Below are positions 6,367 to 49,664 of a stretch of 64,000 nucleotides of DNA, piece after piece. This DNA comes from Candidatus Aminicenantota bacterium (lineage in GTDB: Bacteria; Acidobacteriota; Aminicenantia; Aminicenantales; Saccharicenantaceae), in contig JAPKZD010000008.1 of assembly GCA_026393975.1 (NCBI GenBank), forward strand, positions 1 to 64,000. The letters run 5' to 3'. How positions within the stretch are numbered: position 1 is the stretch's first letter; the number at the start of each line of letters is the position of its first letter. Made by a program: the position numbers and the translations under genes. The notes beneath the pieces are model-generated. The model did not search any database and was not told the origin of the DNA. It saw only the letters and a program-made list of their open reading frames with translations.

Positions 6367-8438
6367 AGCCTGAACCTGTAACCGGCGTAAAGAGCGAGTC
6401 TCGTCCGGCGTCCGAAATCCTGGTTCGCGTCCGCGGCCGCCTGGAAGGGGAAATAGACCTCGACCCCGACGTTGAGCCTCTCGAGGCGTCCGAACAGGTC
6501 GTAGAAAAGCGGCATCTCCACTCCCGTCGTCAGGAAGGCGCGGCGGAGGTTCGCCCGGCCGTCCCAGAGCTTGAAGCCCAGAAGCTTCAGGCTGGCAAGG
6601 TTGGCTTTGGGAAGATGAAATTCCAGGGTGAACGGGGAGACTTCCAAAGTGCCGGCGTAGGCCTGGGCGTCCGGGCTTATTCCCCGGATGTTGTAGTCGA
6701 TGACTCCGAGACTTAAGGAGGGCCGCCAGTTGACGAACGCCAAGTATCCGTTGCCCTTTTCCCTGCCCCATACGCCCGGGCAGAACTCGAGGGATGCACC
6801 TGTGCTAGACGGGTGCGAGAGATAGGAAGCCGACAGGGTCACTTGAGGCTTGACCTTTGGCTGGCGGAAGTCCTCCGGGTTCACGAAGTGCGGAGAGGCG
6901 TCGACGACCCGGCCGCCGACGACATGGACGAGCAGATAATGATGGCCGACGCCGGTGACGTCGTCCCTGATTTCGACGGATCTTCCGCTCCTGGGGCCGC
7001 CGAGATCCTGGAGTTTCTGATTATAGGCGTTGACCCAGGGTTTGGTCTTTTGGGCCATGAAAACTGTCCTCAGCGGTCCGCCCCCGCCCCCGGAGATGTA
7101 ACATTGAACGGTGTGATCGGCCGACCCCGGCGCCCTCGCGATGAGAGTGAAATGCTCATAGGCATGGACGCACGAACTGAAGACGTCGGAGGCGTCGGAA
7201 AAGAGGATGTCGTCGAAGAAGCTTGGAGCGCCCTTCTCCTGGCCGGGCTGGGGAAGTCCCAGGGCCAGCCAACTGTTGTAGCCGACACCCGGATTGGTGA
7301 CATGCCGGGAGCTATTGAAGATCGGGCTATGCATTGACACGACGAGGGTCAGGCCGCGTTCCCGGGCGTATGCGGCGACCGCCTGGTAAAAATCGGATTG
7401 GCCGTTGAAGGGGCTGACCGTGAAGAGGTTCAGCCGGTGTTGCTCCTTCTTGTCGGGGTAGAGGGCCTGTTTCAGCCGGGCGAAGTCCGGATAATGCCAG
7501 CCCCGGGCCATGGAATCCAGGAGCAGGTAGACCACGTTTCTGGCTTCGAACGCGTAGTGAACCATGTTGTCGGAATTCAGGACTGGGAGTGTGCCGTAGC
7601 CGGCCTTTCGGAAAATCGCCGCGAGCCCGGCGGCCAGGCGCTCCTTGCCGGCCCGATATTCATCTTCCTGAAGGGGCGGATTCTCGTTGAATTTCAGGTG
7701 AAAACGGCCGTCTTTCTTGAGGACGTATTGCTCGGCCAGGTATCGAACGTCGGCAGGATCCCCGAGCTTCGCGGAGAGCTCGCGGAACGTTTTTCCCGGG
7801 AGGTCGGCCGGTACGGGGTAGAGGATATGCGGGTTGTGAATCCAACGGTCCCAGTCGAAGAACGATTTGAGATAGACGGGCCCTTTGGTGGAGTCCATAA
7901 GATCCGTGTAGTGGGTCGGGGCATGAGGTCGGAAGCTCAAGAGCTCATGGTTTCCGGTGACAGGAAAGATCGGCTTCTCCCGGGTGAGGATTTGGAGATA
8001 AGGATAGGAGATCCCGTCGGGTCCCTTTCCGTCGAAGGCTTTCTCCAGCGCGTCCCATTGCCTGGGGCTCGAGCCCTCATAGACGAGGTCGCCGTTAAGG
8101 ATGACGAAGCGGATCCGGTCGTATAGACGCTCGCCGGTCTTCTCGTCAACAACTTGTAGCATGTCCTTGGCGATGGCGTTGAAGACGGCGTGTCCGAAAT
8201 CCTTGGGACTGTTCTGGATATCGCCGATAAGCACGAAATAGTAATCGTCAAGCCTGTTGCCGGAACTCGAGGCTTCCGTTAGGAACCTCCCGACGAGGTC
8301 GATGTTTCGGTCTTTGAACTTCGGGCTTTCGCCCGAAAACGCGACGGGCCGAGGTTCGGTCCCGACGGCCCGACCGGTCATGGATAGGGCCAGGAGCAAC
8401 AACAGGCTGGCCAGGACCGATCTGACCTTGATCTTCAT
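6363..8438 (-). CDS. Exported calcineurin-like phosphoesterase with C-terminal beta-barrel-like domain
   Basis: The 691-residue protein has a signal peptide (about 1-26). Its N-terminal calcineurin-type metallophosphoesterase domain shows successive metal motifs: LIGDIQ, LNGDLVYEG, VTGNHE, then VVSMHSP and a late histidine-rich region CVHAYEH. The last 190 residues or so are different: alternating hydrophobic/polar strands separated by turns (for example LALYAGYRFRL at the very end), as in outer-membrane beta barrels or autotransporter-like porins. The likely picture is an outer-membrane-anchored phosphoesterase with a periplasmic or surface catalytic domain; the substrate is unknown. The start at 8438 has AGGAGAATGAATTT upstream. 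Its last codon overlaps the remnant on the opposite strand. Confidence 0.85.
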   Translation of the reverse strand: MKIKVRSVLASLLLLLALSMTGRAVGTEPRPVAFSGESPKFKDRNIDLVGRFLTEASSSGNRLDDYYFVLIGDIQNSPKDFGHAVFNAIAKDMLQVVDEKTGERLYDRIRFVILNGDLVYEGSSPRQWDALEKAFDGKGPDGISYPYLQILTREKPIFPVTGNHELLSFRPHAPTHYTDLMDSTKGPVYLKSFFDWDRWIHNPHILYPVPADLPGKTFRELSAKLGDPADVRYLAEQYVLKKDGRFHLKFNENPPLQEDEYRAGKERLAAGLAAIFRKAGYGTLPVLNSDNMVHYAFEARNVVYLLLDSMARGWHYPDFARLKQALYPDKKEQHRLNLFTVSPFNGQSDFYQAVAAYARERGLTLVVSMHSPIFNSSRHVTNPGVGYNSWLALGLPQPGQEKGAPSFFDDILFSDASDVFSSCVHAYEHFTLIARAPGSADHTVQCYISGGGGGPLRTVFMAQKTKPWVNAYNQKLQDLGGPRSGRSVEIRDDVTGVGHHYLLVHVVGGRVVDASPHFVNPEDFRQPKVKPQVTLSASYLSHPSSTGASLEFCPGVWGREKGNGYLAFVNWRPSLSLGVIDYNIRGISPDAQAYAGTLEVSPFTLEFHLPKANLASLKLLGFKLWDGRANLRRAFLTTGVEMPLFYDLFGRLERLNVGVEVYFPFQAAADANQDFGRRTRLALYAGYRFRL

Positions 8439-8784: not shown

Positions 8785-9595
8785 GGTGCCCCCCGATGGT
8801 TGGACAGTTTAGTGGCTGGTTGAAGGTGCATAGCGGGCCCGCCGGCCTTGCCAGGACCGGGACTGGGAAGCCCGGCCCCGGCCGTCCATGCTGACCTTGA
8901 TGTCATGCTTTTCCAAAAGTCCCGTGAAGTCGGTGCTCGTAAATTGCGAGCTCTGGTCCGTGTTGAAAATCTTCGGCTTCGAGATTTGAAGCGCTTGCCG
9001 AACGGCGTCCAAACAGAAGCCCTTGTCCAGCGTCGTCGAAAGCTCCCACGACAACACGTACCGGCTGTTCCAATCCATGACGGCCACGAGATAAACGAAC
9101 CCAGGCGCCAGCCGGATACACGTGATATCCGTGCACCAGGCTTGATCTGGAGCGTTAATCGTAAGTCCATTCAACAGATAAGGATAAACCTTGTGATCCG
9201 AACCGTTCCACGACAGCCCCGGCTCCGGATAGATGGCCGCGAGGCCCATCAGCCTCATCAGCCGGCTGACTCGCTTGCGGTTGACCTCGTAACCCTGCGT
9301 CCGCAACCAGCTCATCCTGAGATTTCTCATTCTGAGACTTCTGCTGGGAGAACATTTCCGGAAGCCGTTCCAGAAGCCGGGCTCGCCATTGGCGGATCTG
9401 ATTGGGATGGACGCTATACCCCGAAGCGATCTCGGTGATCGTTTTTTCTCCCTTGACCGCCTCCAGAGCGACCTTGGCCTTGAAAGCCGCATCATGAGTT
9501 TTTCGCATCGTAACCATCTTATGCCATACCTCCTTTGAAGATATGGCGGGTCTTGATGCACCTTAACCCCCTGTCCAGTTTTTTGGGGATCCCCA
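8782..9595 (-). mobile_element. Internally deleted IS3-family insertion sequence (about 814 bp)
   Basis: The ends are imperfect inverted repeats. The right end, read inward, is TGGGGATCCCC followed by CTGGACAG. The left end, read inward, is TGAGGTGCCCCCC followed by TTGGACAG. The element carries orfA and orfB pieces on the minus strand but lacks the middle of the transposase and the final catalytic glutamate region, so it cannot move by itself. A full IS3-family element would be about 1.2-1.5 kb. It interrupts the cupin gene on its left. I did not find a clear target-site duplication, consistent with a rearranged right flank. Confidence 0.8.
8809..9517 (-). pseudogene. IS3-family transposase remnant (orfA and orfB pieces)
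   Basis: The first part, from the start at 9517 to about 9325, is an OrfA helix-turn-helix (RKTHDAAFKAKVALEAVKGE, then IRQWRARLLE). The sequence then jumps in another frame into OrfB at RTQGYEVNRKRVSRLMRLMG, skipping the end of OrfA and the start of OrfB. OrfB continues through the integrase core with the first aspartate in WCTDIT and the second in FNTDQSSQFTS. After KVSMDGRGR it becomes unrelated, so the third acidic residue (E of the DDE triad) is absent. Confidence 0.8.
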
Positions 9596-9903
9596 CAGTT
9601 TGGTCACAATTTGGTCACAAATCCCTAGTTAGCTTCATTAAAAACTAACCTGTGAATATCAGGTTGAACCAGCACTCTGATTTGGACCAAAATCCGGGGA
9701 GCCGATCACCACGACCAGTCACCTTTTCCTGATCACTGCCGCTACTCACAGCCTCGCCACGTGAAGGGGTCAGAAGCTTGGGGTCTCTTCCTCGACGACT
9801 TGGCAGCCATCGAGATCAGTGATTTGACATTCCTACCTTGGCATTCTATTAATAGGTCAATTGCTATTTCGAAGTGATCCGTCGATAAAGAGGATTAATT
9901 CAT
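9596..9903. other. Intergenic region upstream of the radical SAM gene
   Basis: No gene is visible. Immediately after the insertion sequence there are two tandem copies of TTTGGTCACAA (about 9598-9620). A 6-bp hairpin with arms AACCTG and CAGGTT lies at 9647-9665. The composition is lower in GC than the flanking chromosome. A Shine-Dalgarno-like AAAGAGGATTAATTC precedes the radical SAM start. I see no convincing -35/-10 pair. Confidence 0.4.
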
Positions 9904-11598
9904 ATGAACTCGATAAAACTTCTTCTGGTTTCTGTCTTCGGGCCCTTCGGGGTGAGGGACGATTACGCCGAGGGAAATGGAATGCAGATGGAACTCTTAA
10001 ACAACCAGATCACGAGGCAGCAGGGAGTCCACTCGCCCCGGCAGTCCTACTGGAGCTTCCCGTTGTACCTGCTCGCGGAGAATGTCTCGGTGCCTGCAAC
10101 TGTTCTCGATTTTCCCACCTGGGAAGAATTCACGAGGGAACTGGAAAAGGGTTACACTCACGTGGGCATCACCTTCATCGTCCCCAACGTCCTGAAGGCT
10201 CGAAGGATGGCCGAGCACATCAGATCGAAACACCCTGAGATAAAGATAATACTGGGCGGCTTTGGCACCATGGTCCCTGCCCTGGAGACCGTCGTTCCCC
10301 ACGACGGTGTATGCGACGGCGAGGGTGTGGAGTGGCTGAGGCGGTACTTCGGGGAAGACCCATCGGCACCTATCGTACATCCTGCCATCATCGGCCCAGC
10401 CTACGAGTACATCTATGGGGCAAAAACTCCCACGAAGGGGTCGATCCTGCTCACCGGGGTGGGGTGCAACAACGCCTGTGAGTTCTGCGCCACCTCCTTC
10501 AAGTTCGGCAAGGAGTATGTGCCCTTTATGTCGACCGGGGCCCAGGTGTTCGATGCCTGTCTGAAGTCTGAAAAGGAACTGGGTTCAAGGGGATTTACCA
10601 TTATCGATGAGAATTTTCTCAAGAAGCCCCAACGGGCCAGGGAACTTCTGACCCAGTTGGAGGCACAGGAGAAGGCCTACGTCTTCGACATATTCTCCTC
10701 CGCCGAGGTGATCACCGATGTGGGCATCGATTTCCTCGTGCGACTGGGCATACACATGATCTGGATCGGTGTCGAGTCAAGGGCCAACACCCATGCGAAG
10801 CTTAGGGACATAGACATCGGCAAACTGATAGCTCAGCTCCAGGAAAATGGCATCTCGGTGATAACGTCTGGCATCCTTTTCCTTGACCACCACGACCAAG
10901 CGACCATCAGAGAAGACATCGAGTGGATCATCGGCCTCGGTTCCGACATGACCCAGTTCATGAACTACACACCCTTCCCATGTACCGCTTTGTATGCAAG
11001 GCTTGCCGGGGAGGGAAGGCTCAAGGATATCCACTATCGCTTCCACCACGGGGCGGGAGAACTGAACTGGAACCACCCGTACATCGTTGATCCAAAGGAA
11101 CAGGCCAACCTGCTGAAAGAAGCATTCAGGAGGAAGTACGAGGTCAGCGGTCCTGGTATCCTCAATATGGCAATCACCGCCATCCGGGGCTATGCGAAGG
11201 CCGAGGCCAATAGAACACGGAGGGAGGCGGAATCGCTTGTCTGGAACCCCGAGAGTCTGCGATACGAGAAGAGCGACCATGCTGCTGACGACGCGTTCAT
11301 GCGCCAGAGGATCAGACGTCTCCAGAAGATCGCCTTGAACTTGCGCCCCATCCTGCTTCCCGCCCTTTTGTTCGCACCCAACAAGGCTTCCAGGATGAAG
11401 GCCTGGAATGCGATGAGACTGTACGGAAAAGTCCTTGGCAGTGCCGGCCCGGGGGTGATCCTGAAGGGGCTCTTCCTGGTATTCACGGGTTTCATGGAGC
11501 AAGTCAAGCTGTGGTTCAGGAGAGCGAGTGGGTACGAGGATATCGTTCTCCAGCCTCCCAGTCGAAGGGTGGAGTATAGGATTCCTCGGTTGGGATGA
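9904..11598 (+). CDS. B12-binding domain radical SAM protein
   Basis: The 564-residue protein combines an N-terminal cobalamin-binding-like domain (IILGGFGTMVP near residue 115) with a radical SAM core that has the [4Fe-4S] motif CNNACEFC. The conserved GVES-like segment (IWIGVESR) follows. The C-terminal third contains hydrophobic helices and may associate with the membrane. Class-B-type radical SAM enzymes methylate or rearrange unactivated carbons in lipids or natural products; the product here cannot be named. It stands alone, between an insertion sequence and a tRNA fragment, with somewhat lower GC than its neighbours. This context suggests lateral acquisition. Confidence 0.88.
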   Translation: MNSIKLLLVSVFGPFGVRDDYAEGNGMQMELLNNQITRQQGVHSPRQSYWSFPLYLLAENVSVPATVLDFPTWEEFTRELEKGYTHVGITFIVPNVLKARRMAEHIRSKHPEIKIILGGFGTMVPALETVVPHDGVCDGEGVEWLRRYFGEDPSAPIVHPAIIGPAYEYIYGAKTPTKGSILLTGVGCNNACEFCATSFKFGKEYVPFMSTGAQVFDACLKSEKELGSRGFTIIDENFLKKPQRARELLTQLEAQEKAYVFDIFSSAEVITDVGIDFLVRLGIHMIWIGVESRANTHAKLRDIDIGKLIAQLQENGISVITSGILFLDHHDQATIREDIEWIIGLGSDMTQFMNYTPFPCTALYARLAGEGRLKDIHYRFHHGAGELNWNHPYIVDPKEQANLLKEAFRRKYEVSGPGILNMAITAIRGYAKAEANRTRREAESLVWNPESLRYEKSDHAADDAFMRQRIRRLQKIALNLRPILLPALLFAPNKASRMKAWNAMRLYGKVLGSAGPGVILKGLFLVFTGFMEQVKLWFRRASGYEDIVLQPPSRRVEYRIPRLG

Positions 11599-11608
11599 AT
11601 TGCTGGGG

Positions 11609-11656
11609 GGACCTCATCCCTGAAAAATGGTCCAAACACAATGTGAGTTTTATGGT
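11609..11656 (+). repeat. 48-bp dispersed repeat, copy 2
   Basis: This is the partner of the copy at 221-268, with about four mismatches, in the same orientation. It runs directly into the tRNA 3' fragment, so the fragment and repeat may mark one recombination junction. Confidence 0.75.
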
Positions 11657-11660
11657 AATC

Positions 11661-11701
11661 GGATCCAAAGGTCGGAGGTTCGAATCCTCTCAGGCACGCC
11701 A
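11661..11701 (+). pseudogene. 3' half of a tRNA gene (T-arm, acceptor strand, CCA)
   Basis: The segment contains a proper T-arm (GGAGG, TTCGAAT, CCTCT), followed by the acceptor 3' strand CAGGCAC, discriminator G and encoded CCA. The matching 5' acceptor strand (GTGCCTG) and D-arm are absent upstream, where the 48-bp repeat begins instead, so this is only a 3' half. Such fragments are typical footprints of integrases that recombine at tRNA 3' ends. The original amino acid specificity cannot be read because the anticodon loop is not preserved. Confidence 0.75.
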
Positions 11702-12240
11702 TTTATTATCAACAGGTTAAGCCCGCCCATGTCTTCGAGCAGGTCGCCTTGATGGCGGCCGAGGAGAGCGGGGATTATGAATAGCGGGGGATTGAGAGAG
11801 GAGAGGGGTCTGGCCTTGTTTGGGCGTATTCTCCGCCCCCCGGCCCGACCGTCCGCCTGCAGGAGTCCCCGGCCTGGCGAATCTTGAGTTCTTGACTCTT
11901 GCCCGGGGCTGGGATATCCTTGTTTCGTGATGGGGAGGGTAGGTTTCGAGCCTGAGGCCGGCGCTTTCATGCCGCGCGAAAAAAGGAATTTCCTATCAAT
12001 TGCGAAGCCAACTCCGCTGGTACATTCCTTTCTACAACCAGAGGCGAATCCATTCATCGATCGGCTACCGATCGCCTGTCGACTACGAACGTCGTGCGTC
12101 CTAAACTTAGGTGTCTACAAAACCGAGGGAAGATCCCGAAGCCTGGTGAACTTCGGAGCTTATCCCCAGTGTTGGGCAGACGTTAGGAGTGCCGGGTGGG
12201 CGAGTCGAAGACAGAGTCGTGGCGACACGGTAGGTCGGCG

Positions 12241-13038: not shown

Positions 13039-13245
13039 GGTTCTATGCGGATCTGATCGACATTAGTCGTCGAGGAAACGCCGGGATACTCACTGCTTGA
13101 CGTCAGCGAAATTCGGACAGGGAAACAGCGAAGCTCATCGGAATCGATTGTCCGGGAGATCAAGCGTCAAACCTGCCGGAAGTCTGCGCAAACCTCTGTT
13201 TTGGGGGAGCAAAGAAAAACCGCTTGTTCATTAACGGGGAGGGGG

Positions 13246-14034
13246 CTAGTTCAGGTAGGCTCTGGCTCCGGAGAAACGCTCCTTGAAATAAAGGCCGTCG
13301 AGAGATTCCTCGCGGACCTTTTTGCCTTTCCCCGGGGCATGAATAAAGACGTTCTCTCCGACGTAGATCCCCACATGGGATGTCGGCCGTCCCGGAGAGC
13401 CAGAGAAGAAGACGAGGTCGCCCTTTTGCAGCCGGTCCCGGGCGACCGTCGTTCCCGCTTGGTATTGATCCGTCATCGACCGAGGCAGGCTGAGGCCGTT
13501 CAGCTGATAGACCGCCCTGACTAGTCCGCTGCAATCGACGCCTTCGGGCCTCGATGTTCCGCCCCACGTGTACTCCACACCGATGAAACTCTCCGCCGTG
13601 GCCACCAGCTTTTCCCGGAGGTCCTCTCCCGACAAGCTCCGCCTATATACGGGCTGATCCTCGGGGCCGACGATGAAGTAGTCCTCGACGAGCACTAGCT
13701 CGAGAAGTCGCTTGGCCTCACGGACGGCGGCGTCCCTGGAAGGGAAGTCCCCGAAACGAACTCTAAAGAGCCCTGACCCCTGTGAAAAATAATAAGCATC
13801 CAGGCCGATGTCGTTCAGGGCCTGGGCCAGCCGTCGAGCATTGTCCAGGATGGAGAAGGCGCCAACCTGCACGGTGTAGCCCGTCCGCGCCACGGCGGCG
13901 CTTGGCGCGGCGGGAGCGGGGATTGTGGGAGGAGCGGAGGGAGGAATGACTCGGACGCCCGCTTGACATCCGGAGAACCAGGCAACAGCGACTCCGAAGA
14001 GGACAAGGCTGGTTCTCGTCAAACACATCTTCAT
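13246..14034 (-). CDS. Lipoprotein with SPOR and NlpC/P60 domains (peptidoglycan endopeptidase)
   Basis: The 262-residue protein has a lipobox ending FSGC (Cys23), a Pro/Ala linker, and a SPOR domain (about 52-125, starting YTVQVGAF) that binds denuded septal glycan. The C-terminal NlpC/P60 cysteine peptidase has the cysteine in VDCSGL, the histidine in TSHVGIY and a further polar residue in FIHAPG. It should cleave peptidoglycan stem peptides at the division site or cell wall while anchored to a membrane. The start has GAGGAAG upstream. The length and domain order are normal for SPOR-NlpC lipoproteins. Immediately upstream lies a tRNA fragment. Confidence 0.9.
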   Translation of the reverse strand: MKMCLTRTSLVLFGVAVAWFSGCQAGVRVIPPSAPPTIPAPAAPSAAVARTGYTVQVGAFSILDNARRLAQALNDIGLDAYYFSQGSGLFRVRFGDFPSRDAAVREAKRLLELVLVEDYFIVGPEDQPVYRRSLSGEDLREKLVATAESFIGVEYTWGGTSRPEGVDCSGLVRAVYQLNGLSLPRSMTDQYQAGTTVARDRLQKGDLVFFSGSPGRPTSHVGIYVGENVFIHAPGKGKKVREESLDGLYFKERFSGARAYLN

Positions 14035-14436
14035 TTTATTCTTCCTCCATTCAATTTTGTCGAACAGAGGATTGGAAGATGGAATTTTTATGGGGTCGCC
14101 CTTCTAGCGCAGTTCGTTCGTAATCAGCAGGTCGGAGGTTCGATCCCTCTCGCTGGCTCCATCCCATATCCCTCGAGAAAATAGGTCGTTTATGCCTCAT
14201 TTCTGTACCGTTTAATCGTCCGTCAGAGTCCCCCGGAATTATGCAGATTTCAATCTTCCAGTGGATATTTTGTGGACACTTAGATTTCATAGTTGACAGC
14301 TAAGGGTCCGACGTATTAAGTAAAGAATAGCTGCAGATAGAAGCGCCAGACGAAGAGAATATGCCCGGACATGGGGAAATCAGAAAAAACTGCTGATAGT
14401 TATGCAGAACCGAGGCTTTCCCGCTCCGTCGGCTAG
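14035..14436. other. Intergenic region with tRNA-Thr fragment
   Basis: The stretch contains a tRNA 3' half (14117-14161) and otherwise no gene. TTGACA at 14293-14298 could be a -35 element for the HEAT-repeat gene, but the -10 (TTAAGT at 14316-14321) is poor. The region is AT-richer than average. Confidence 0.4.
14117..14161 (+). pseudogene. 3' half of tRNA-Thr(CGT), probable attachment-site remnant
   Basis: Reading from the anticodon loop TTCGTAA (anticodon CGT), the segment gives the anticodon-stem 3' strand TCAGC, variable loop AGGTC, T-arm, acceptor strand CGCTGGC, discriminator T and CCA. The 5' strand that should pair with TCAGC is missing; upstream there is only a possible D-arm crumb (TAGCGCAGTT). 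The first 32 bases (14117-14148) recur exactly at 21333-21364. The anticodon loop to T-loop is the usual core used by tyrosine recombinases that integrate in tRNA genes. Confidence 0.75.
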
Positions 14437-15330
14437 ATGGATCGTGATTTTATGAACGAACCAGAAGCTTGTTGTTCCCCTGAAATCAAACGACGGTCAG
14501 TCCGCGCCATTTTACTAAGTGTGTATGCGCTAGGACTTGCCTTGGCCGGGTGTCGAAGTTCGGAGAGTCGTCAGATCGCCGACCTGAAGGATGCAAATCC
14601 TGCTGTGCGACGGAATGCGGCCGAGGCGTTGGGGAAGCGCGGGGACCCGCACTCTGTCGTACCCCTGATCGCCGCCCTAAACGACGCCGATGCGGAAGTC
14701 CGATTCGCCGCGGCCGGGGCGTTGGCGAAACTCGACGACCGCGACGCCATCGGGCCCCTGATAGCCACCCTGAAGGATACGGATTCAAACGTGAGATGGA
14801 GCGCGGCCTTCGCTTTGCGAGATATTGGCATCCCTGCCGTGTCTCCCCTGATCGCCGTGCTGGAGGATACGGATCCCACGGTCCGCGCCATCGCGGCTCG
14901 AATATTGGGAGAGATTAAGAACCCCCTCACCGAAGGTGTAGATCGGCCGGGGCTAGGGATCGCTGTTGATCCCTTGATTGCCGCCCTGGAGGATTCAGAT
15001 TCTGAAGTCCGATCGATTGCAGCCCACGCTTTGGCAGAGATCGGCGCACCGGCCGCCGAGCGCCTGATTCCGGCCCTGCGGGCAGGTGATCTTGCTGTCG
15101 TCGCTAGGGCCCATTCCTTCTTCATCGAATGGGCTGAGCCGGGGTCGGAGGATCCGCTCATCCAGGCGCTGAATGCTCACGGAACTACAGAGATGGCCGA
15201 GGAATATCTGAACTGCGGAAACTCGGCGCTGCGAGAGGCAGCGCAAAAATGGGCCGCCGTGCACGGTCATTCGACAGTATCTCTTCCAAGATCAGGGAGG
15301 GGAGGTGCCGGCTGGGGCGCCCGGCGGTGA
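14437..15330 (+). CDS. HEAT-repeat (PBS lyase-type) lipoprotein
   Basis: The 297-residue protein has a hydrophobic N-terminus ending LALAGC, a good lipobox (Cys39 from this start, or Cys34 from the alternative ATG at 14452). Five or six HEAT repeats of about 31 residues follow, each with the pattern D-x-VR-x-A-A-x-ALG/ALA…PLI-x-L-x-D. HEAT arrays are protein-binding scaffolds; no catalytic residues are expected. It probably sits at the inner or outer membrane facing the periplasm. It precedes a second HEAT protein by 88 bp and both lie between the two tRNA-Thr fragments. Confidence 0.85.
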   Translation: MDRDFMNEPEACCSPEIKRRSVRAILLSVYALGLALAGCRSSESRQIADLKDANPAVRRNAAEALGKRGDPHSVVPLIAALNDADAEVRFAAAGALAKLDDRDAIGPLIATLKDTDSNVRWSAAFALRDIGIPAVSPLIAVLEDTDPTVRAIAARILGEIKNPLTEGVDRPGLGIAVDPLIAALEDSDSEVRSIAAHALAEIGAPAAERLIPALRAGDLAVVARAHSFFIEWAEPGSEDPLIQALNAHGTTEMAEEYLNCGNSALREAAQKWAAVHGHSTVSLPRSGRGGAGWGARR

Positions 15331-15418
15331 CTTTGTCGGAAAAGGATGCATACTATCGATCCTCGGATGCCAAGGGGCTGCTGATCTATTCTGGTGATCA
15401 TATGCGGGGAGGATTGAA

Positions 15419-16675
15419 ATGGGATTGTTTAAGACGGTGTTGGGTGACGTCGATATCCAGAGGCTCATCGAAGCCAAGAATTTTGACGGACTTCTTAAGG
15501 CCTCGGCCAAAAAGGATCCAGAGGTTAAAAAGAAGGCCGTCCAGGCATTCGGCTGCCTTGGGGAGAGCGCCCGCGGCTTTCTTTCTTCCAATCTGGGAAA
15601 ATCCAACGAGCTACAAAATGTCCGGTCAGCTGCGGTTCTGAGGGAACTGGGCTGGGTTCCCGGCACCATCGAGGAAAGAATCCTGTTTCTGATGGGCCTC
15701 AATTCCTGGGAAGATCTAACGGATCTCAGAGAGGAGGCCGCAGCCCCTCTTATGCAGATCGTCAAGTCCAGGGACTTCGGGGACGGCATCAGATCGGCCG
15801 CCCTGATCGCTATCGGCCATTTTCATCAGTCCGAAGTCGCCAAGTTCATCGTCGACGATCTCCAGAAAAGCTGTGCCACGAATACCCCCGATGCTCACAT
15901 CGCGGTGGGCTGCTTGAAGCGCATGGGAAGCGCGGCTGTCGACTCTCTCGCAGCCGTCTTAAATGACGAAAAAAGCTCCCAACAGGCCAGCATATGGGCC
16001 AGTCAAACCCTAGCTATGATCGGACGCCCCGCTGTCGAGGCACTGATCGCAGTCAATAAGAACCCTCCCGGAACAGATTTGAAGGCCCTGGAATCCTGGA
16101 CGTTCTCTCTCCAAGCCCTGGCCGGAACAGCGGACGAAAAAGCCTTGGATCATATCAGAAACGGCGCGCTTCAAGCGCTCCGGAACAATTACGCAAATAA
16201 AGGGACGAAGGGCCTGCCCCCCCCTTCAGAGGCGGCTAAGATCGTCGAGACCGTTCTCGACCTCTTCAAGGATCCGCCTCGCTCGATCGTCAAGTATGTC
16301 AAACTCGGGGGGCCGATGCGGTCCTATCAGATCATCGCCACGCTGGCCTCCGGAAACCGCCGGGAAACGCAATCCGTCAAGGCATTCAATTTGCTGGGAG
16401 GCACGGGGTTCGGTGAGGCTATCTTCGGTTCTACGAATTCCGTCGCAATGGATGCCCTGGACAAGATCGGCGGAGACGAAGCGACAAAGGCCATGGTCGA
16501 TTTCATAAAGAGCAGCATCGGGCCCGAACGAAGGACGAAAGCGATCATGATGATCGACAAGAATGTCCACCCTTCGATGATGGAATATTTAAAAGACTAT
16601 GGTGAAAAGGCAGCCTTTCATTTTCTCGATAGGGCAGCCAGCGCCTTAACCCTAATTCATCTCATAAGAAGATAA
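15419..16675 (+). CDS. Cytoplasmic HEAT-like repeat protein
   Basis: The 418-residue protein is built of helical repeats with recurring A-A-x-AIG and DPEVKKKAVQAFG patterns, consistent with a HEAT/armadillo solenoid. It lacks a signal peptide and membrane segments, so it is probably cytoplasmic. I cannot assign a partner. The start at 15419 has GGGAGGATTGAA upstream. It follows the HEAT lipoprotein and may share its transcript. Confidence 0.8.
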   Translation: MGLFKTVLGDVDIQRLIEAKNFDGLLKASAKKDPEVKKKAVQAFGCLGESARGFLSSNLGKSNELQNVRSAAVLRELGWVPGTIEERILFLMGLNSWEDLTDLREEAAAPLMQIVKSRDFGDGIRSAALIAIGHFHQSEVAKFIVDDLQKSCATNTPDAHIAVGCLKRMGSAAVDSLAAVLNDEKSSQQASIWASQTLAMIGRPAVEALIAVNKNPPGTDLKALESWTFSLQALAGTADEKALDHIRNGALQALRNNYANKGTKGLPPPSEAAKIVETVLDLFKDPPRSIVKYVKLGGPMRSYQIIATLASGNRRETQSVKAFNLLGGTGFGEAIFGSTNSVAMDALDKIGGDEATKAMVDFIKSSIGPERRTKAIMMIDKNVHPSMMEYLKDYGEKAAFHFLDRAASALTLIHLIRR

Positions 16676-16859
16676 TTCGAAAGCAGAGGGGGAAAGTCAG
16701 CAGGCGAATCGACGGCCGACGGAGTTTCTTGATAGTCACCAGCAGCCGAGAGTCGGATCCTTGACATCCGGCTGCAATCGGAAATAGATATATTTCGGGA
16801 CGATAGATTCCAGGGCAGGAAGATAGAGTCCTAAGAAGTTGGTCCGAAGGAGGTTGGGG

Positions 16860-17477
16860 ATGAGAAACAGTGTGCTTGGAATGTTGTCTGTTGCCGCGCT
16901 GGCCCTTGCCTCACTCTCATGTGCGACACAGCCGACGGAGAGCGAGTTCATCATCAAGGCTCGGTCGGTGTCCAATCCTGGAGTCGCTTCTTCGGACGTA
17001 TCGGTGATCGTCCGGCGCGATCCTCGCTCCGGCGAGTCGCGCAAAATCATCGAGTTCCATCCACCCCTTTCTCTCGTGCTGAACAACGACGGAACGTTCG
17101 CTTTGGAGTTGGGTTTCCTTATGGAGGATATCGTCAACCGCGTCCTTCAGAAGCGTATCAGTGGGAGCGATTCGAGGACGATCATGGTGGATTCGAATGT
17201 TTCTTTAAACGACATCGTCACGATGGACCCGCTGAAAGTAACCCATGTCTGGGAGATCTATGAACCGGAAACGGCGCAGGCCGAGAATCCGAGCCCAGCT
17301 ACAACGGTTGGCGAGCCCCCGCCGCAATCCCGTATCCCAGCCGAAGCGCCGAAAAAAAGGCCGGGATTCGTATGCGCGAAACTCTCGGGCAACGCGAAGA
17401 AGAACAGCGTTGAATCGATGGAAATTTGGGTCGCTACCCCGGATTCACCGTATGCCTCAGCATTTCGCGAACGCTGA
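16860..17477 (+). CDS. Lipoprotein of unknown function
   Basis: The 205-residue protein starts with a lipoprotein signal ending LASLSC. The body has no motif that I recognise; a proline-rich linker lies at about 140-165. I chose ATG 16860 because AAGGAGGTTGGGG precedes it and it begins the signal peptide; the in-frame ATG at 16839 would add seven residues. It ends only 2 bp from the convergent ankyrin gene. Confidence 0.7.
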   Translation: MRNSVLGMLSVAALALASLSCATQPTESEFIIKARSVSNPGVASSDVSVIVRRDPRSGESRKIIEFHPPLSLVLNNDGTFALELGFLMEDIVNRVLQKRISGSDSRTIMVDSNVSLNDIVTMDPLKVTHVWEIYEPETAQAENPSPATTVGEPPPQSRIPAEAPKKRPGFVCAKLSGNAKKNSVESMEIWVATPDSPYASAFRER

Positions 17478-17479
17478 AG

Positions 17480-18472
17480 CTAACCTTTCCTGATCTTCTG
17501 CGGGCCCCTTCGCCGGACGGTTAGCCAGATGCCGATTCCCAACATCAGGACACCCTGACCAAGGACGATATAGGGCACTTCCGAGGAAGAAGCCTCCTGC
17601 CTCGGACGAGTCTTCGCTTGTCTGGCCGCGACCGAGCTACTTGAGGACGTTTCATCTATGACCCCGATGCCGCTCGTGACCATCATGATGCCCAGGATGA
17701 TGAGAGCGATCCCGAGAATGCGGGTCCATTTCTTGGGCTGGCGCCTGACCCTTTTCACCGCGGCGAGGGGGGCCGGAGGCATTGTTCGCAGAAGGATGTC
17801 TTCAGCGTCGGCGAACAGCTCCTCTCCACTGAGGGAATGCGAATGAGTTGGGGGTACATGGGAGGGCGCAGATGACCTCATTCTGGTCTCCTCAAACGAC
17901 CTAAGAAGTCCGGCTATCTCTGAATGGTGGTGCGAGACCGCCCATTGGCATGCGGTCTGTCCTTGAAGGTCCGAGATCAGGGGGTCAGCGCCGGCATTCA
18001 GTAGGATCCTGACGGTTTCGATGTCAGCGCTCAACACGGCGTGCATGAGGGGCGTCGAGCCGTGTCGTGATTGGCGGTTGGTTTTGGCGCCGGCCTTCAA
18101 CATCTCTCGCACCACCTCATGGTGCGCCTTGGAGCACGCAGCGAAGAGCGGCGTCTCGCCTGAGGTGTTCTCGGCCTCAGGGTCGGCTCCGGCGCGCAAT
18201 AGGGACCGGACGACCTCGAGATGACCGTTGATTGCAGCTGAGAAGATAGCCGGTGCGCCGACATGGTTCTTGGCTTCTACGTTAGCGCCCCGGGCGAGGA
18301 GTCCGTCAACCGCGCTTACGTCGCCTCGGCTTGCGGCGATCGACAAGGCGGTGAATCCCCAGGATTGTTGGCAGTTGACGTCGGCTCCGGCGTCAATGGC
18401 GGCAAGGCAAGCCGCGATGTCACCAGCATCAATCGCCTTGCGGAGTCGGTCATTTGAGTTTTCGGTCATCAT
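17480..18472 (-). CDS. Ankyrin-repeat protein with two C-terminal membrane helices
   Basis: The 330-residue protein has about six ankyrin repeats (residues 5-195) with clear G-x-TALSIAASRGD and GETPLFAACSKAHHE units. A Ser/His-rich linker follows, then two membrane segments near 250-270 and 305-322. The repeats should face the cytoplasm and bind a partner protein. It starts 21 bp after the SRPBCC-TPR-RDD gene, so the two very likely form an operon and may work together at the inner membrane. Confidence 0.85.
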   Translation of the reverse strand: MMTENSNDRLRKAIDAGDIAACLAAIDAGADVNCQQSWGFTALSIAASRGDVSAVDGLLARGANVEAKNHVGAPAIFSAAINGHLEVVRSLLRAGADPEAENTSGETPLFAACSKAHHEVVREMLKAGAKTNRQSRHGSTPLMHAVLSADIETVRILLNAGADPLISDLQGQTACQWAVSHHHSEIAGLLRSFEETRMRSSAPSHVPPTHSHSLSGEELFADAEDILLRTMPPAPLAAVKRVRRQPKKWTRILGIALIILGIMMVTSGIGVIDETSSSSSVAARQAKTRPRQEASSSEVPYIVLGQGVLMLGIGIWLTVRRRGPQKIRKG

Positions 18473-18493
18473 TCGCCTCCCTCGCGATAGGCT

Positions 18494-19960
18494 TTACGAT
18501 TTCCCTGCCTTGACGACCAGGCACCGCGACAGGAGATCATGCAGCGCCTGCTTCTTGGGCGTGAAGACGGCCAACGCATAACCGATATAGAACGTCAGGA
18601 TCCCCAGAACCTTGACGAAAAAGCGTCCCGTGGCTCGGCCGAACCCTATCCTGCGGCCGTTCATGTCGGTCACCCGTAGGCCAAGAATGCGTTTGCCGAG
18701 GGTAGCTCCTCTGGGCGATGATTCCATCAAAGCAAAATAGAGCCACCAAAGGGCGAGCACGGCAAGCACCCAACCCGGCCTGATAGCCGGATTTCGCGCT
18801 GCCGATCCTCTGGGGGTCGCAATCGCCTGGAGCGGCGCTGATGCGATAATGAGGATGAATCCGTCAATGAGGAATGCCACGAGCCGCACCCATGGAGAGG
18901 CGTAGGATGCCGCCGTGATCGGCTGAGGCCCGGCCGTTGTCGCCCTTTTCGGGATTATGGGGGCCGGCCGTTCCGTTGGCGGCCAGACAAGGTCAAACGC
19001 GGGAATGGCTTCGGGTTTGACTGCATCCGGCAGTCCGCCAGGGAATTCCGTCGCCGTCGAGCCGGCCGCTTGGGCCTTGGCGGCATCGGCCCGAATAGCC
19101 TTGAGATTATTCGAGATCCTTTCGTTGCCTGGATTGACCTCATGCGCTCGAGATAGCCAGGCGACGGCCTCACGGTGATAGCCTGCCCGAGCCAAGGCAA
19201 CTCCGCAACTCATCAGGGCTAGGTCGTTATAAGGGTTAAACCGCGCCGCGACGCTGTACAGCTCCGCCCCCCTGACCAGGGCCTGGGTATCGCCGCCTTT
19301 GGCAACGATAACGGAATCGCTGACATAGCGGCCCCCCCGGGCGACGAGATCGGCTTCCATAACATGAGCCACGGACTCTTTGAGCCGCCTGATGTCCCCG
19401 ACGCTCTGCTTGCGGAGGATCGCCAGTTGCTCTTGTAGGCGCCAGAAGGCGTCCGGCCCCGGCGCCGCAGATACCAGGTTGGCAGCTCCCGAAGTTTTTT
19501 CGCGGATGACGATCTCGTAAACATCAAAGGGAAGGTTTCCGATGGACAGTTTTTCCTCGGCTGTCAGAGGGCCCAGGAAGGCCTCCCGGCTCTCCATCAG
19601 TTGCTTGAGTTTGGCCAGGTTCTTATCGAGCTGTGCGATCCTCCCCGCACCGGCGTCGGAGAACGATGCCCCGCGCAGAGGGACTTCGATGATCTCGACC
19701 TCGGTTGTCCCGGCCATCTTGGGATTGAGGCCGATAGTAGAGAGGAGATACGCGCTCTCGATCCCCAGTACACTCCCTTCCTGATAGGAGGCAAGTTTCG
19801 AGGGTAGGCCAATGGCCCATCTCATTGTCGCGCCGGCCTGCCAACCTGGGATCACCTCCTGCAGGTCTCCGTTGTCCCAAAGCTTCCAGTTGGCCGGCTC
19901 CATCAACCAGCGCCAGATGTTATCTTGCGGACTTGCGATAACCGTCTTCGATCGGATCAT
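18494..19960 (-). CDS. SRPBCC-like/TPR/RDD-family membrane protein
   Basis: The 488-residue protein combines three parts. The N-terminus (about 1-150) begins like an SRPBCC/polyketide-cyclase fold (VIASPQDNIWRWLMEPANWKLW). The middle (about 220-300) has a tetratricopeptide-like unit (AELYSVAARFNPYND, then LSRAHEVNPGNERI). The C-terminus (about 350-485) is an RDD membrane domain with the marker segment TLGKRILGLRVTD. RDD proteins are membrane proteins, some linked to ion or metabolite transport; the fusion's role is unknown. The start has AAGGAGAAGAGCAAC upstream. It is co-directional and tightly spaced with the ankyrin gene. Confidence 0.85.
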   Translation of the reverse strand: MIRSKTVIASPQDNIWRWLMEPANWKLWDNGDLQEVIPGWQAGATMRWAIGLPSKLASYQEGSVLGIESAYLLSTIGLNPKMAGTTEVEIIEVPLRGASFSDAGAGRIAQLDKNLAKLKQLMESREAFLGPLTAEEKLSIGNLPFDVYEIVIREKTSGAANLVSAAPGPDAFWRLQEQLAILRKQSVGDIRRLKESVAHVMEADLVARGGRYVSDSVIVAKGGDTQALVRGAELYSVAARFNPYNDLALMSCGVALARAGYHREAVAWLSRAHEVNPGNERISNNLKAIRADAAKAQAAGSTATEFPGGLPDAVKPEAIPAFDLVWPPTERPAPIIPKRATTAGPQPITAASYASPWVRLVAFLIDGFILIIASAPLQAIATPRGSAARNPAIRPGWVLAVLALWWLYFALMESSPRGATLGKRILGLRVTDMNGRRIGFGRATGRFFVKVLGILTFYIGYALAVFTPKKQALHDLLSRCLVVKAGKS

Positions 19961-20083
19961 GTTGCTCTTCTCCTTCGGCTATCGCCGATCCTCCGCGGGC
20001 CTGGGAAATTTCTTGACAGCGAGGAGGATACTCAGGATGCCCTCGGAAGACAAGCATTCCACGACTCGGAGGAAAGCTCAGTA

Positions 20084-20131
20084 CTTGAAAATCTCACTTC
20101 AGAGGTAGTACATTGAATAAGGGCAGGTCAT
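20084..20131 (+). repeat. 57-bp dispersed repeat family, partial copy R1
   Basis: The copy runs from CTTGAAAATCTCACTTCAGA to the GGGCAGGTCAT end and matches R3 (24091-24147) in the same orientation with a few mismatches. It lacks the first GGTCAAATG part. The core can fold into a short stem with arms ACCTC and GAGGT in the better-preserved copies. Confidence 0.75.
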
Positions 20132-20178
20132 CAGCTTGCCATCACTTCCGTTGGCACCGATGAAACGAGGTCCTTACG

Positions 20179-21306
20179 ATGAACACATTCTTGTCAAGGT
20201 TTCGCCGTCGACTCACTCAATATAAGGAGGAAGTGTCCGCGATCACGGCGCAGACTGCCCGTGACCCCGGTGCGGATGTCTCCATAACCTCGCAACGCGC
20301 GCCAGATATGTCCGCAATTACCACCCTTGAGCCTCTGAAAGGGATATTAGAAGAGATATCGAAAGACGCAGAGCGCATTCTGGCGGTCAGGAAAATGGAT
20401 CAGGAGTACGCCGAAGCATACAAACGCAACGACAACCAGAAGTGCAGAGAGATCAATAGCGCAAGGCCACAATACCATAGGCCTTACCTTGATCACCGCG
20501 CAAGAATGTACAAAACGATCGTGCAGTCTGATTCAGATAGAGCAAGAGACTTCCTGAGGCAGGTGCTCAAAGACCAGCGTTGGTTTGTGCGACAATTTGC
20601 GGCCGAGGCATTGACGTTTCTTTCCGAAGGGAAAGTCGATTTGACGAAGGCCAACTACCCGGTTTTTTGCGAGCGTCTGACGAACATGATCGCTTCGAAT
20701 CGGGATTATACGCTGCTTGCCTACCGAAGTACTTTCTTCTTTCAATATTATAATCTCGCCGACGCCGATAATGAGGCAGCATTTGTATCGGGCTATCGGC
20801 CGTACAACTCAGATGACAGCAGGATGGCCCGTAAAGCACTGACGGTGGCCGGGCCAGAAGCTGTCGATGATATCTTGCGAGTCTATTCTGAGATCACCGA
20901 TGGCTACGCTCGGTCCGATCTGATTGCTGTCTTGATGGAAATCGATGATTCTCGCGCGAAGCCCGTGGTGTTGGGAGATCTCTTGGGCAACAAGATTCCC
21001 GGCAACAAGGAAACCATCAGGAAGTGGTGCATCAGAGATATCAAGAAGGAGGTAGATAGTTTATTTCGCAGCGATATCGCCGAAAAGGATAAGCGACGCA
21101 AACTTACTGAGTTTCTCATTGCTCTGGGCGCGGAGGGAAATGGCAAGACCGCGATATTCTGTGAATGTGGATATCCTGTGCGGGTGCGATACACAGACTG
21201 CTCAGAAGGCCCGATTAACGACCTCTGCATCGTCGAATCGTGCGAATACACGAACACCTTCAAGTGCGGCAACTGCGGCAGATTTGTCTGCCGGATAACC
21301 ATGTGA
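20179..21306 (+). CDS. Unknown protein with HEAT-like body and C-terminal zinc-ribbon-like tail
   Basis: I do not recognise this 375-residue protein. The body is helical, with segments such as FLRQVLKDQRWFVRQFAAEA and ALTVAGPEAVDDILRV that look like degenerate HEAT repeats. The last 50 residues contain CEC, a TDC, VESC and finally CGNC, which could bind zinc. It has no signal peptide. It lies just inside the second tRNA-Thr core repeat and after repeat R1, and its codon usage is less GC-biased than the chromosomal backbone, consistent with an acquired gene. Confidence 0.7.
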   Translation: MNTFLSRFRRRLTQYKEEVSAITAQTARDPGADVSITSQRAPDMSAITTLEPLKGILEEISKDAERILAVRKMDQEYAEAYKRNDNQKCREINSARPQYHRPYLDHRARMYKTIVQSDSDRARDFLRQVLKDQRWFVRQFAAEALTFLSEGKVDLTKANYPVFCERLTNMIASNRDYTLLAYRSTFFFQYYNLADADNEAAFVSGYRPYNSDDSRMARKALTVAGPEAVDDILRVYSEITDGYARSDLIAVLMEIDDSRAKPVVLGDLLGNKIPGNKETIRKWCIRDIKKEVDSLFRSDIAEKDKRRKLTEFLIALGAEGNGKTAIFCECGYPVRVRYTDCSEGPINDLCIVESCEYTNTFKCGNCGRFVCRITM

Positions 21307-21332
21307 GTGTAGCGAAACGCTAGGTCAGTCCC

Positions 21333-21364
21333 TTCGTAATCAGCAGGTCGGAGGTTCGATCCCT
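21333..21364 (+). repeat. tRNA-Thr(CGT) core direct repeat, second copy
   Basis: These 32 bases are identical to 14117-14148 (anticodon loop through T-loop of a tRNA-Thr). The sequence then diverges into GCAGACGG instead of the tRNA acceptor strand. The copies are direct repeats 7.2 kb apart and enclose the HEAT, lipoprotein, ankyrin, RDD and zinc-ribbon genes. Confidence 0.8.
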
Positions 21365-21434
21365 GCAGACGGTAATCGGCGCAATCCCCACAAGCATTTT
21401 CGATTCGTCAATGATGATCTACTATCGTAGCGAT

Positions 21435-22085
21435 TCAGCCCGTCGCTTGCGCCCCGCGAGTTCCACGAAATAAAAAGGTCAACACAAACCCCGCCAGAAA
21501 TCCGCCGATGTGCGCCATGTAAGCGACGCCACCCGTCTGCGCCGTGTTGGCAATGGAACCGATGCCGCTAAAAAACTGCAAAACGATCCACATCCCAATG
21601 ACTATCAGCGCGGGCATTTGAATCACTTGTTGGCCCTGCAATACTCTGACCTTTCCCTTTGGGAACAGCAAAATGTAAGCGCCGAGCACTCCCGCAATCG
21701 CCCCCGATGCTCCCAAATTCGGCACGTTTGATCCGTGGCTAAACGCCAACTGTGCAAAAGTTGCAGCAAGCCCACAGAGCAGGTAGAAGATTATGAACTT
21801 GATATGCCCGAAACGGTCTTCCACATTGTCACCGAAGATCCATAAGTAAAGCATGTTGCCTCCCAGGTGAACCCACCCGGCATGCATGAACAGGGAAGTA
21901 AAGAGCGTCAGAAAATCACCGGAGGGATTGGCAAGGAAGCGGCTAGGAACGAAAGCCCACTTCCCAATAAAGGCGTCACCGCCACTCAGCTCTACAAAGA
22001 AAAACAGGACGTTCAGAGCGATGAAGGCATATGTGACCAGCGGAACAGTTCTGCGAGAGGTATCGTCATCACCGATTGGGATCAT
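21435..22085 (-). CDS. Rhomboid family intramembrane serine protease
   Basis: The 216-residue protein has six or so membrane segments. The diagnostic rhomboid motifs are present: HLGGNMLYLWIFG, the catalytic serine in GASGAIAG, and the histidine in AHIGGF. It should cleave transmembrane substrates in the inner membrane. Length and motif spacing are normal for bacterial rhomboids. It stands alone just outside the tRNA-core repeat, and its composition is less GC-rich than the 30-64 kb backbone. Confidence 0.92.
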   Translation of the reverse strand: MIPIGDDDTSRRTVPLVTYAFIALNVLFFFVELSGGDAFIGKWAFVPSRFLANPSGDFLTLFTSLFMHAGWVHLGGNMLYLWIFGDNVEDRFGHIKFIIFYLLCGLAATFAQLAFSHGSNVPNLGASGAIAGVLGAYILLFPKGKVRVLQGQQVIQMPALIVIGMWIVLQFFSGIGSIANTAQTGGVAYMAHIGGFLAGFVLTFLFRGTRGAQATG

Positions 22086-22172
22086 AAGATCTATCTCCTT
22101 TTACTCTGGTTGGATTTGTCACAGCTTCACGTCAAAATGAGTCTGGCATTTTTCAAAGAAAGTGATTTACTC

Positions 22173-22228
22173 GTGACCTACCCCTCTCAATATACCACCT
22201 CTGAAGTGAGGCTTTCAAGCATTTGACC
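22173..22228 (-). repeat. 57-bp dispersed repeat family, inverted copy R2
   Basis: Read on the minus strand it starts GGTCAAATGCTTGAAAGCC and ends GGTAGGTCAC, matching R3 (24091-24147) with about six mismatches. R2 and R3 face opposite ways and enclose the YkgJ-like and metallophosphoesterase genes. Confidence 0.8.
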
Positions 22229-24095: not shown

Positions 24096-24147
24096 AATGC
24101 TTGAAAACCTCACTTCAGAGGTGGTACATTGAACGGGGGCAGGTCAT
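24091..24147 (+). repeat. 57-bp dispersed repeat family, copy R3
   Basis: This is the fullest copy, starting GGTCAAATGCTTGAAAACC and ending GGGGGCAGGTCAT. Its relatives are R2 (inverted, 22173-22228) and R1 (direct, 20084-20131). Confidence 0.8.
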
Positions 24148-29371: not shown

Positions 29372-29640
29372 TCAATCCTCTGAGGAACCAGAAATGGCGT
29401 TGCGGTCCCTTCCGTAATACTTGTCCGCGGGGGTCACGTTGTCGATGGCCTCGTGATACCGCTGATGATTGTAATATTCCACTCTGAGGTGTTCCCGTTG
29501 AGCTGTCTTTTGCCGGCCTCGCCCCGCAGGCCCTCCAGCACGATCCGGATTTTTTCCTCGGCTGTGAACTTCCGGCGGGTCTGTCGCTTGATCTCCCGGA
29601 CGATCGATTCCGGTGAGCTTCCCTGTTTCCCTTTGGTATT
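29372..29640 (-). mobile_element. Internally deleted IS3-family remnant
   Basis: The minus strand reads the OrfA N-terminus (SIVREIKRQTRRKFTAEEKI, then RIVLEGLRGEAGKRQ). It then, in another frame, reads the OrfB C-terminus (LRVEYYNHQRYHEAIDNVTP, then ADKYYGRDRNA). About 350 residues between them are missing. No clear terminal repeats could be placed. A different IS3 lineage from the element at 8782, it shows the same kind of internal loss. Confidence 0.75.
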
Positions 29641-29805
29641 CCCTCCAGGGCTTGGCGATTTCCACGCACCATTCTACGAGGATTCGCCGGAAACGTTCAA
29701 GGGTTATCATCCGCCCGGCGAGTTGCGAAAAAAAGTCAAATCCGATAATATTGATAGTGTTTCGGCGGCGCCGGCCGCCTGACCGTGGAGAGCCGTGGAG
29801 AGCGT

Positions 29806-48478: not shown

Positions 48479-48624
48479 GCGCGAATGAATTTAACAAAGA
48501 CGCCTCGTATTGTCAAAACGCCATACGCGTTCAGACACATAGGTGACACCCTCGGCGGAAAGGTGTAGGAATAAAAGAGGGCCGTTTCCGCCTAAACGCC
48601 CCTCGGGGGGACGGCGTATTCTCT

Positions 48625-49651: not shown

Positions 49652-49664
49652 TTGGAGGGGTGAG

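Follow-up and report, generated by a model that had tools for sequence, protein, structure and literature searches.

Repeated tRNA-Thr(CGT) 3′ halves as probable junctions in a tandem array of integrase-less modules in a Candidatus Aminicenantota genome

The DNA analysed here (the window) is a stretch of 64,000 nt that forms part of contig C21 (100,350 bases; GenBank JAPKZD010000008.1) of a Candidatus Aminicenantota bacterium (assembly GCA_026393975.1, hereafter G000; 2.95 Mb, 95% complete). It carries two direct repeats derived from a tRNA-Thr(CGT) gene, and this report concerns these repeats and the variable island in which they lie. The 32-nt sequence TTCGTAATCAGCAGGTCGGAGGTTCGATCCCT occurs exactly, on the + strand, at 14,117–14,148 and 21,333–21,364, as described in an initial annotation of the window. 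No further match with up to three mismatches is present in the window, and none arose in 100 dinucleotide shuffles. The repeated stretch extends further than first described (45 nt with 91% identity, 14,104–14,148 and 21,320–21,364), because a similar non-tRNA stretch (CTAGCGCAGTTCG and CTAGGTCAGTCCC) precedes the tRNA part in both copies. Within tRNA-Thr(CGT), the 32-nt segment covers the part from the anticodon loop to the T stem. The intact gene of the same genome, which the initial annotation had left to be located, is found on contig C12 (3611–3684, − strand), 3.6 kb from the contig end, and its match to the repeats confirms their proposed origin: copy 1 corresponds to tRNA positions 20–74 (93%) and reaches the complete acceptor end at 14,159, while copy 2 corresponds to positions 32–63 (100%). 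Neither copy is a whole tRNA, and the window contains no intact one according to ARAGORN. A third remnant, overlooked initially, is the 3′ half of a tRNA-Arg(CCG). The tRNA-derived features and their flanks are as follows.

14,104–14,116, + strand: proximal left arm of copy 1 (CTAGCGCAGTTCG), non-tRNA; similar sequence in the same place in G001, G004, G011, G026 and UBA8522
14,117–14,159, + strand: copy 1, tRNA-Thr(CGT) 3′ half, positions 32–74, anticodon loop to acceptor end (tRNA match)
14,160–14,205, + strand: putative right arm (P′ side) of the module starting at copy 1 (alignment to other right flanks)
21,314–21,332, + strand: proximal left arm of copy 2 (AACGCTAGGTCAGTCCC); positions 89–123 of arm model R1 match at 21,312–21,346 (E 5e-4)
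21,333–21,364, + strand: copy 2, tRNA-Thr(CGT) positions 32–63, ending abruptly at a module border; the sequence shared with G026 begins at 21,365
11,660–11,701, + strand: tRNA-Arg(CCG) 3′ half, positions 36–77 including CCA; 42 nt, 100% identical to the tRNA-Arg(CCG) of the genome

To the right of the tRNA-Arg half, nt 11,721–12,002 show many matches of 68–83% in relatives, several per genome, with no match in Rfam; a search of nt 8000–31,000 of the window returned no Rfam RNA at all.

The position of the repeats within the chromosome was assessed by comparison with related genomes. In the nearest relative (G004), a single contig carries a flank that matches the flank of the G000 tRNA at 96% identity, followed by an intact tRNA-Thr, a 22-kb stretch that for the most part differs, and a core that is 91–95% colinear with nt 29,659–60,899 of the window. 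The tRNA is likewise followed by this core in five other relatives, in which the gap between tRNA-Thr and the core is 9.4 kb (G002), 1.0 kb (G003), 3.8 kb (G006), 8.4 kb (G008) or 1.8 kb (G009), and core synteny begins at about 29,8xx. Nucleotides 1–29,658 are therefore a variable island behind tRNA-Thr(CGT). Their G+C content is 55–59%, compared with 64% for the core, and the end of C12 is similarly low (52% versus 64%). The island thus comprises at least 29.7 kb in the window plus at least 3.6 kb on C12, and the 7.2 kb between the repeats, which had been taken as the island, are only part of it. In every contig that carries both, the partial copies lie downstream of the intact tRNA and on the same strand (G002, G004, G008, G011, G024, G026, G036 and UBA8522). 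The arrangement is not ancestral, as G003 is nearly empty (about 1 kb between tRNA and core) and the modules common to G000 and G004 are permuted. The initial proposal, that remains of integrative elements have accreted at a tRNA-Thr gene, is supported by this synteny, by the permuted modules and by the near-empty site in G003. Neither of the two conditions that it named as refuting applies: the intact tRNA-Thr is syntenic with this locus, and the arrangement is not an inherited one. Among 84,980 species genomes, the junction pattern gave six exact matches, of which four are in metagenome-assembled genomes (MAGs) of Candidatus Aminicenantes and one is in an Acidobacteria MAG. The core pattern also matches at locus L124 in Nocardioidaceae; the locus lacks an intact tRNA, and this match was regarded as fortuitous. 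In another genus (locus L087, G013:C12, 2751–7712), a direct tandem duplication of about 2.5 kb (96.7%) is found right behind tRNA-Thr(CGT).

The genes and modules of the island, and the core that follows it, are listed below (a dot in place of the strand means none assigned).

1–29,658, strand (.): hypervariable island behind tRNA-Thr(CGT), as far as it lies in the window; core synteny starts at 29,659; lower G+C
9738–11,640, + strand: radical-SAM/B12-binding module, gene 9904–11,598 (Pfam; matches in G004 and G030)
13,232–14,163, − strand: NlpC/P60-SPOR module, gene 13,246–14,034, ending at the tRNA half of copy 1 (Pfam; match in G004)
14,437–15,330, + strand: HEAT-repeat protein (Pfam HEAT_2, E 8e-38)
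15,419–16,675, + strand: HEAT-like protein (Pfam HEAT_2, E 7e-11)
16,839–17,477, + strand: putative lipoprotein (no Pfam family)
17,480–18,472, − strand: ankyrin-repeat membrane protein (Pfam Ank_2, E 4e-32)
18,494–19,960, − strand: RDD-family protein (Pfam RDD, E 3e-28)
20,179–21,306, + strand: HEAT protein with C-terminal cysteine pairs (Pfam HEAT_2, E 1e-7)
21,365–22,104, − strand: rhomboid module, gene 21,435–22,085 (Pfam; matches in G026)
29,659–60,899, strand (.): conserved core following the island in relatives (91–95% colinear with G004)

Between the repeats, Pfam agrees with the first annotation for the two HEAT proteins, the ankyrin protein and the RDD protein, and assigns no family to the putative lipoprotein. 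The SRPBCC and TPR parts then assigned to the RDD protein have no Pfam match at E ≤ 0.01, and the protein first annotated as zinc-ribbon is a HEAT protein, with cysteine pairs at its C terminus. No full-length relative of the RDD protein was detected in 39 relatives. A Pfam scan of 20 proteins, of which 18 come from nt 1–29,658 and none from the large open reading frames (ORFs) at 25.5–29.7 kb, revealed no conjugation, mobilisation or phage structural genes.

Only two pieces of the G004 island are common to the window, the NlpC/P60 and radical-SAM modules, and their order is swapped. The NlpC/P60 module is 97.1% identical in the two genomes, and the similarity stops at the end of the copy 1 tRNA half; beyond this point G000 continues into the HEAT/ankyrin/RDD stretch and G004 into the radical-SAM module. 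The latter is 93.6% identical in G004 and 94.2% (over 1,745 nt) in G030, which belongs to another family of the order. The rhomboid module is shared with G026, again of another family, at 90.8% (contig C40) and 93.7% (contig C12), and the C40 match starts exactly at 21,365, the first base past copy 2. An ATPase module of G004 is 93.7% identical in G008, against 83.5% for its flanks; in G008 it extends from 8 bases past the tRNA to immediately ahead of a tRNA half. The 7.2-kb stretch between the repeats may itself be one module or several fused ones.

The junctions share a layout of left arm, anticodon loop, tRNA 3′ half and right arm. The left arm, of about 95 nt, is conserved in G011 (at three junctions), G026, G001, G006 and UBA8522, reads ...GTGAGCACAATCTGAGCACAATCRATTTTGC...TATCAGTAAGTTGAAACGCTAGGCCAGTTSG immediately before TTCGTAA, and contains GAGCACAAT-YT-GAGCACA repeats. 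The repeat GAGCACAATTTGAGCACA is also found to the right of the intact tRNA-Thr in G000 and G026. The sequence to the right of copy 1 (14,160–14,205) aligns with the right flanks of tRNA-Thr in G000 (C12) and G026, and with that of a G011 junction (z 5.9–8.1; 0 of 500 shuffles in each case). In G011, three junctions 0.9 and 1.7 kb apart follow the intact tRNA. Judged from sequence, the genes between them specify a nucleotidyltransferase-like and a lipoprotein-like protein, and a kinase-TPR gene lies ahead of the first; modules of only 0.9 and 1.7 kb retain full ends. Integrase genes of the relatives show a comparable geometry, 15 of 23 having a tRNA piece 100–200 bp downstream on the same strand, mostly starting at tRNA position 27–33. 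Halves of tRNA genes with conserved flanking arms across the order are as expected of tyrosine-recombinase attachment (att) sites. Three viral matches of the Thr-type arm (L200–L202) had neither a tRNA (ARAGORN) nor an integrase (order-specific model) and were set aside as chance or as general arm motifs, and the motif AATCAGMNNYTTA near one integrase (in G009) is too short and too patchy to support a link. The commonest cargo beside junctions is a zinc-ribbon/Ser-Thr kinase/TPR protein, seen at eight sites (including L073, L080, L123, L152, L153, L215 and L240).

A second array in G000 lies behind tRNA-Arg(CCG). Contig C17 carries the intact gene (8069–8145) and halves at 3107 and 140, and further halves are found at C1:50,243 and C1:47,920 (array stretch 47,920–50,303) and at C13:162,484. 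The modules of this array lack an integrase and carry, as read from their sequence, a MarR-HlyD-MFS-TolC efflux operon, two HEAT proteins, a kinase-TPR protein and others. Two of the ends, at C17:140 and C17:3109, share 99.4% identity across 165 nt and have unrelated cargo. The left arm of the Arg junctions, GTCACAAAANATGCNTAAANNCGCC, occurs at 18 places in 11 genomes (e.g. G000:C1:50,379 and 50,166; L235–L252), and at 16 of these it lies within about 180 nt of a tRNA piece, at a near-fixed distance. The neighbouring tRNAs are His, Lys(CTT), Arg(CCT), Met, Arg(CCG) and one on C12 read as Asp(GTC). At G000:C1:50,243 and G002:C7:429,286, the arm is present on both sides of the core. The half read as tRNA-Asp(GTC) (L002:1217–1270, G000:C12 about 3330–3390) lies about 250 nt downstream of the intact tRNA-Thr and has the second arm family on its 3′ side.

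A recombinase was searched for with PF00589 and with an order-specific model built from 19 integrases of relatives. Neither detected an integrase or a relic of one in the tRNA-Thr island DNA examined from 15 genomes, which extends to the relatives the absence first remarked on in the window. The only tyrosine recombinases of G000 are XerC-like and XerD-like, and no large serine recombinase (PF07508) was found in that genome. Within up to 1.5 kb either side of the 18 GTCACAAAANATGCNTAAANNCGCC loci there is no integrase and, conversely, the arm is absent from the integrase loci of the relatives. A weak integrase relic (E 3.5e-9) is present at L153:3692–4033, about 4.5 kb from the tRNA-Arg half on C13. 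Up to 99 relatives were searched for a helper integrase through the Thr-type arm, its sequence model and the second arm, and viral contigs through the arms, in each case with a negative result. Clustering of cargo ORFs, which might have revealed a common arm-adjacent gene as a new recombinase, returned only the zinc-ribbon/kinase/TPR protein.

The repeats are likely junctions in a tandem array of foreign modules behind tRNA-Thr(CGT), integrase-less and probably stacked by site-specific recombination. That accretion took place we regard as very likely, whereas mobilisation in trans is favoured only slightly over its absence. Entry of a module would most likely proceed by tyrosine-recombinase-type recombination in the anticodon loop (TTCGTAA). 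The end of the incoming module would bring a tRNA 3′ half, so that the tRNA stays intact while the old 3′ half is displaced and marks the far side; repeated insertion would then stack the modules. Holding no recombinase and only one or a few cargo genes, such modules would be non-autonomous. An integrase that the assembly does not encode, supplied by a passing element, would act on them in trans to insert and shuffle them, and they may still be moving at present. The lack of an integrase at the tRNA-Thr locus appears to be the rule there and not a local loss. A broader proposal, which we put forward tentatively and consider rather unlikely, is that Aminicenantes host a dedicated cassette system in which small integrase-less modules with common arms use interchangeable tRNA 3′ halves as cores and are served by one trans-acting recombinase; its cores would be those of His, Lys, Arg-CCT, Arg-CCG, Met and probably Asp. 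If so, cargo would be stacked at many tRNA genes by a system resembling an integron in function, with the tRNA genes as its capture sites.

Several observations weigh against the favoured explanation. The distal left arm with its GAGCACA repeats is missing beside both copies in the window and is seen in G000 only beside the intact tRNA on C12. Copy 2 lacks, besides the distal left arm, most of the acceptor half, and the 7.2-kb piece may itself be dead. The module borders at 9738 and 13,232, which lie away from tRNA halves, show no recognisable att sites. The join between C12 and C21 is deduced from synteny rather than read directly. With several of the relatives' islands cut by contig ends and a genome completeness of about 95%, an assembly gap may conceal an integrase.

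The alternative that survives best is decay in place, by which full elements (integrative and conjugative elements, ICEs; integrative and mobilizable elements, IMEs; or prophages) lost their own integrase, leaving att ends and some cargo as cis-mobilizable elements (CIMEs), alongside which later elements accreted. It is a described route to CIME tandems (PMC5704250); integrase-bearing elements with the same geometry occur at other tRNAs of the relatives, and copy 2 and several other junctions are clearly eroded. We consider it possible but less probable. No integrase relic was found in the tRNA-Thr island DNA examined from 15 genomes or within 1.5 kb of the 18 second-arm sites, modules of 0.9 and 1.7 kb keep full ends, and the two tRNA-Arg modules of G000 combine almost identical ends with unrelated cargo and no integrase. 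Independent clean losses that each spared the ends are less economical than mobilisation in trans.

Homologous recombination or segmental duplication around the tRNA gene could have spread the halves without a site-specific recombinase, given that modules are common to genomes at high identity and that two breakpoints (9738 and 13,232) are off att sites. This is improbable, as the identity between G000 and G004 breaks at the end of a tRNA half, the arms keep a near-fixed distance from different tRNAs at 16 of 18 sites, and all copies lie downstream in one orientation. Movement by the host XerC/XerD, in the manner of integrative mobile elements exploiting Xer (IMEX) at dif, would employ the sole tyrosine recombinases found in G000. 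It is judged at least as improbable, since the sites are not dif-like but lie in tRNA anticodon regions flanked on each side by arm repeats, a layout that also occurs next to dedicated integrases. Chance similarity, or an unrelated pair of tRNA pseudogenes, is suggested only by the shortness of copy 2 and is practically negligible in view of the zero matches expected, the syntenic intact tRNA and the arrays of the relatives.

Integrase-less modules whose ends are conserved over families of the order while their cargo is wholly changed, and an arm sequence that recurs at different tRNAs with no integrase close by, raise a testable question: what share of the variable genome in uncultured bacteria travels as non-autonomous cassettes served by helpers, and what the helper is. 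The sequences GTGAGCACAATYTGAGCACAAT and GTCACAAAANATGCNTAAANNNGC can serve as markers for tracing the helper recombinase.

Other repeated sequences were noted in the island. An IS3-type transposase (rve and HTH_21 domains) is encoded at 8809–9561 (− strand). The motif TTGAAAATCTCACTTCAGAGGTRGTAYATTGA, often between GGGGGCAGGTCA-like direct repeats, has six copies in G000. In the window, three copies lie upstream of island genes (20,093–20,116, 22,187–22,210 and 24,109–24,132); the others are at C1:49,089, C12:1699 and C1:31,827, and the motif is also present at G011:C18:1227. It is possibly a remnant of an insertion sequence or a common promoter. An inverted repeat at 20,084/22,187 was rejected as element ends, being a repeated motif present elsewhere in G000 with no matched end pair. 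Near two module borders (13,116–13,183 and 29,568–29,632) lies an inverted repeat of 65–68 nt, 91% identical, that also occurs in G004 and G014.

Tandem accretion at tRNA genes is well known, and its integrase-less members are usually explained as decay. No report of such arrays in Aminicenantes was found in the literature searched. That a single arm family recurs at several tRNAs with no integrase close by appears to be new, in that no description of it was found; the observation is based on a modest sample. The locus has the geometry of Islander-type islands, with an intact tRNA at one end and a displaced 3′ fragment in the same orientation at the other (in G000 across the contig gap); no integrase was found inside the island, though contig ends and the gap leave room for one. 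Its variable content at a fixed locus, with repeated tRNA insertion and tRNA direct repeats, is that of an additive flexible genomic island (fGI). As in CIMEs and tandem accretion (PMC5704250), att sites are kept at both ends, integration genes are absent and accretion is at a tRNA 3′ end; transfer genes are lacking among the annotated genes, for which no aimed search was made. Unlike CIMEs, no cognate ICE or IME was found in the group, several modules are the size of a single gene, and one genome has the same ends around unrelated cargo.

The ssrA island arrays of Dehalococcoides (PMC3146451) are also tandem islands behind one RNA gene, with a direct repeat of its 3′ end and a conserved left motif. 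Sixteen of those islands carry a serine-recombinase module and 15, called possible cis-mobilizable elements, have no integration module, whereas no recombinase was found at the tRNA-Thr locus in any genome examined and the target is the anticodon loop of tRNAs. In the portions of the reports available to us, fGI1 of Actinomarinales (PMC7771536) and fGI-2 of Methylopumilus (PMC10872708) are likewise made of small tRNA-inserted cassettes that leave partial-tRNA direct repeats, and gene exchange between genera is described. Those portions concern other phyla and do not mention conserved arms or reuse at different tRNAs, and in the tRNA-Thr island the module order permutes. The tycheposons of Prochlorococcus, as summarised in the part of PMC10872708 consulted, are tRNA-bounded cargo elements like the present ones but are described with a border tRNA and a tyrosine recombinase, and none of the latter was found here. 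Integrons differ in having IntI beside attI and attC-type sites; here no IntI accompanies the array (XerC/XerD being the only such enzymes of the genome), there is no attC, and the sites are tRNA 3′ halves with arm repeats. In outline, the arrays nevertheless resemble integron cassette arrays, with small integrase-less cassettes that share common recombination ends and are gathered at one site.

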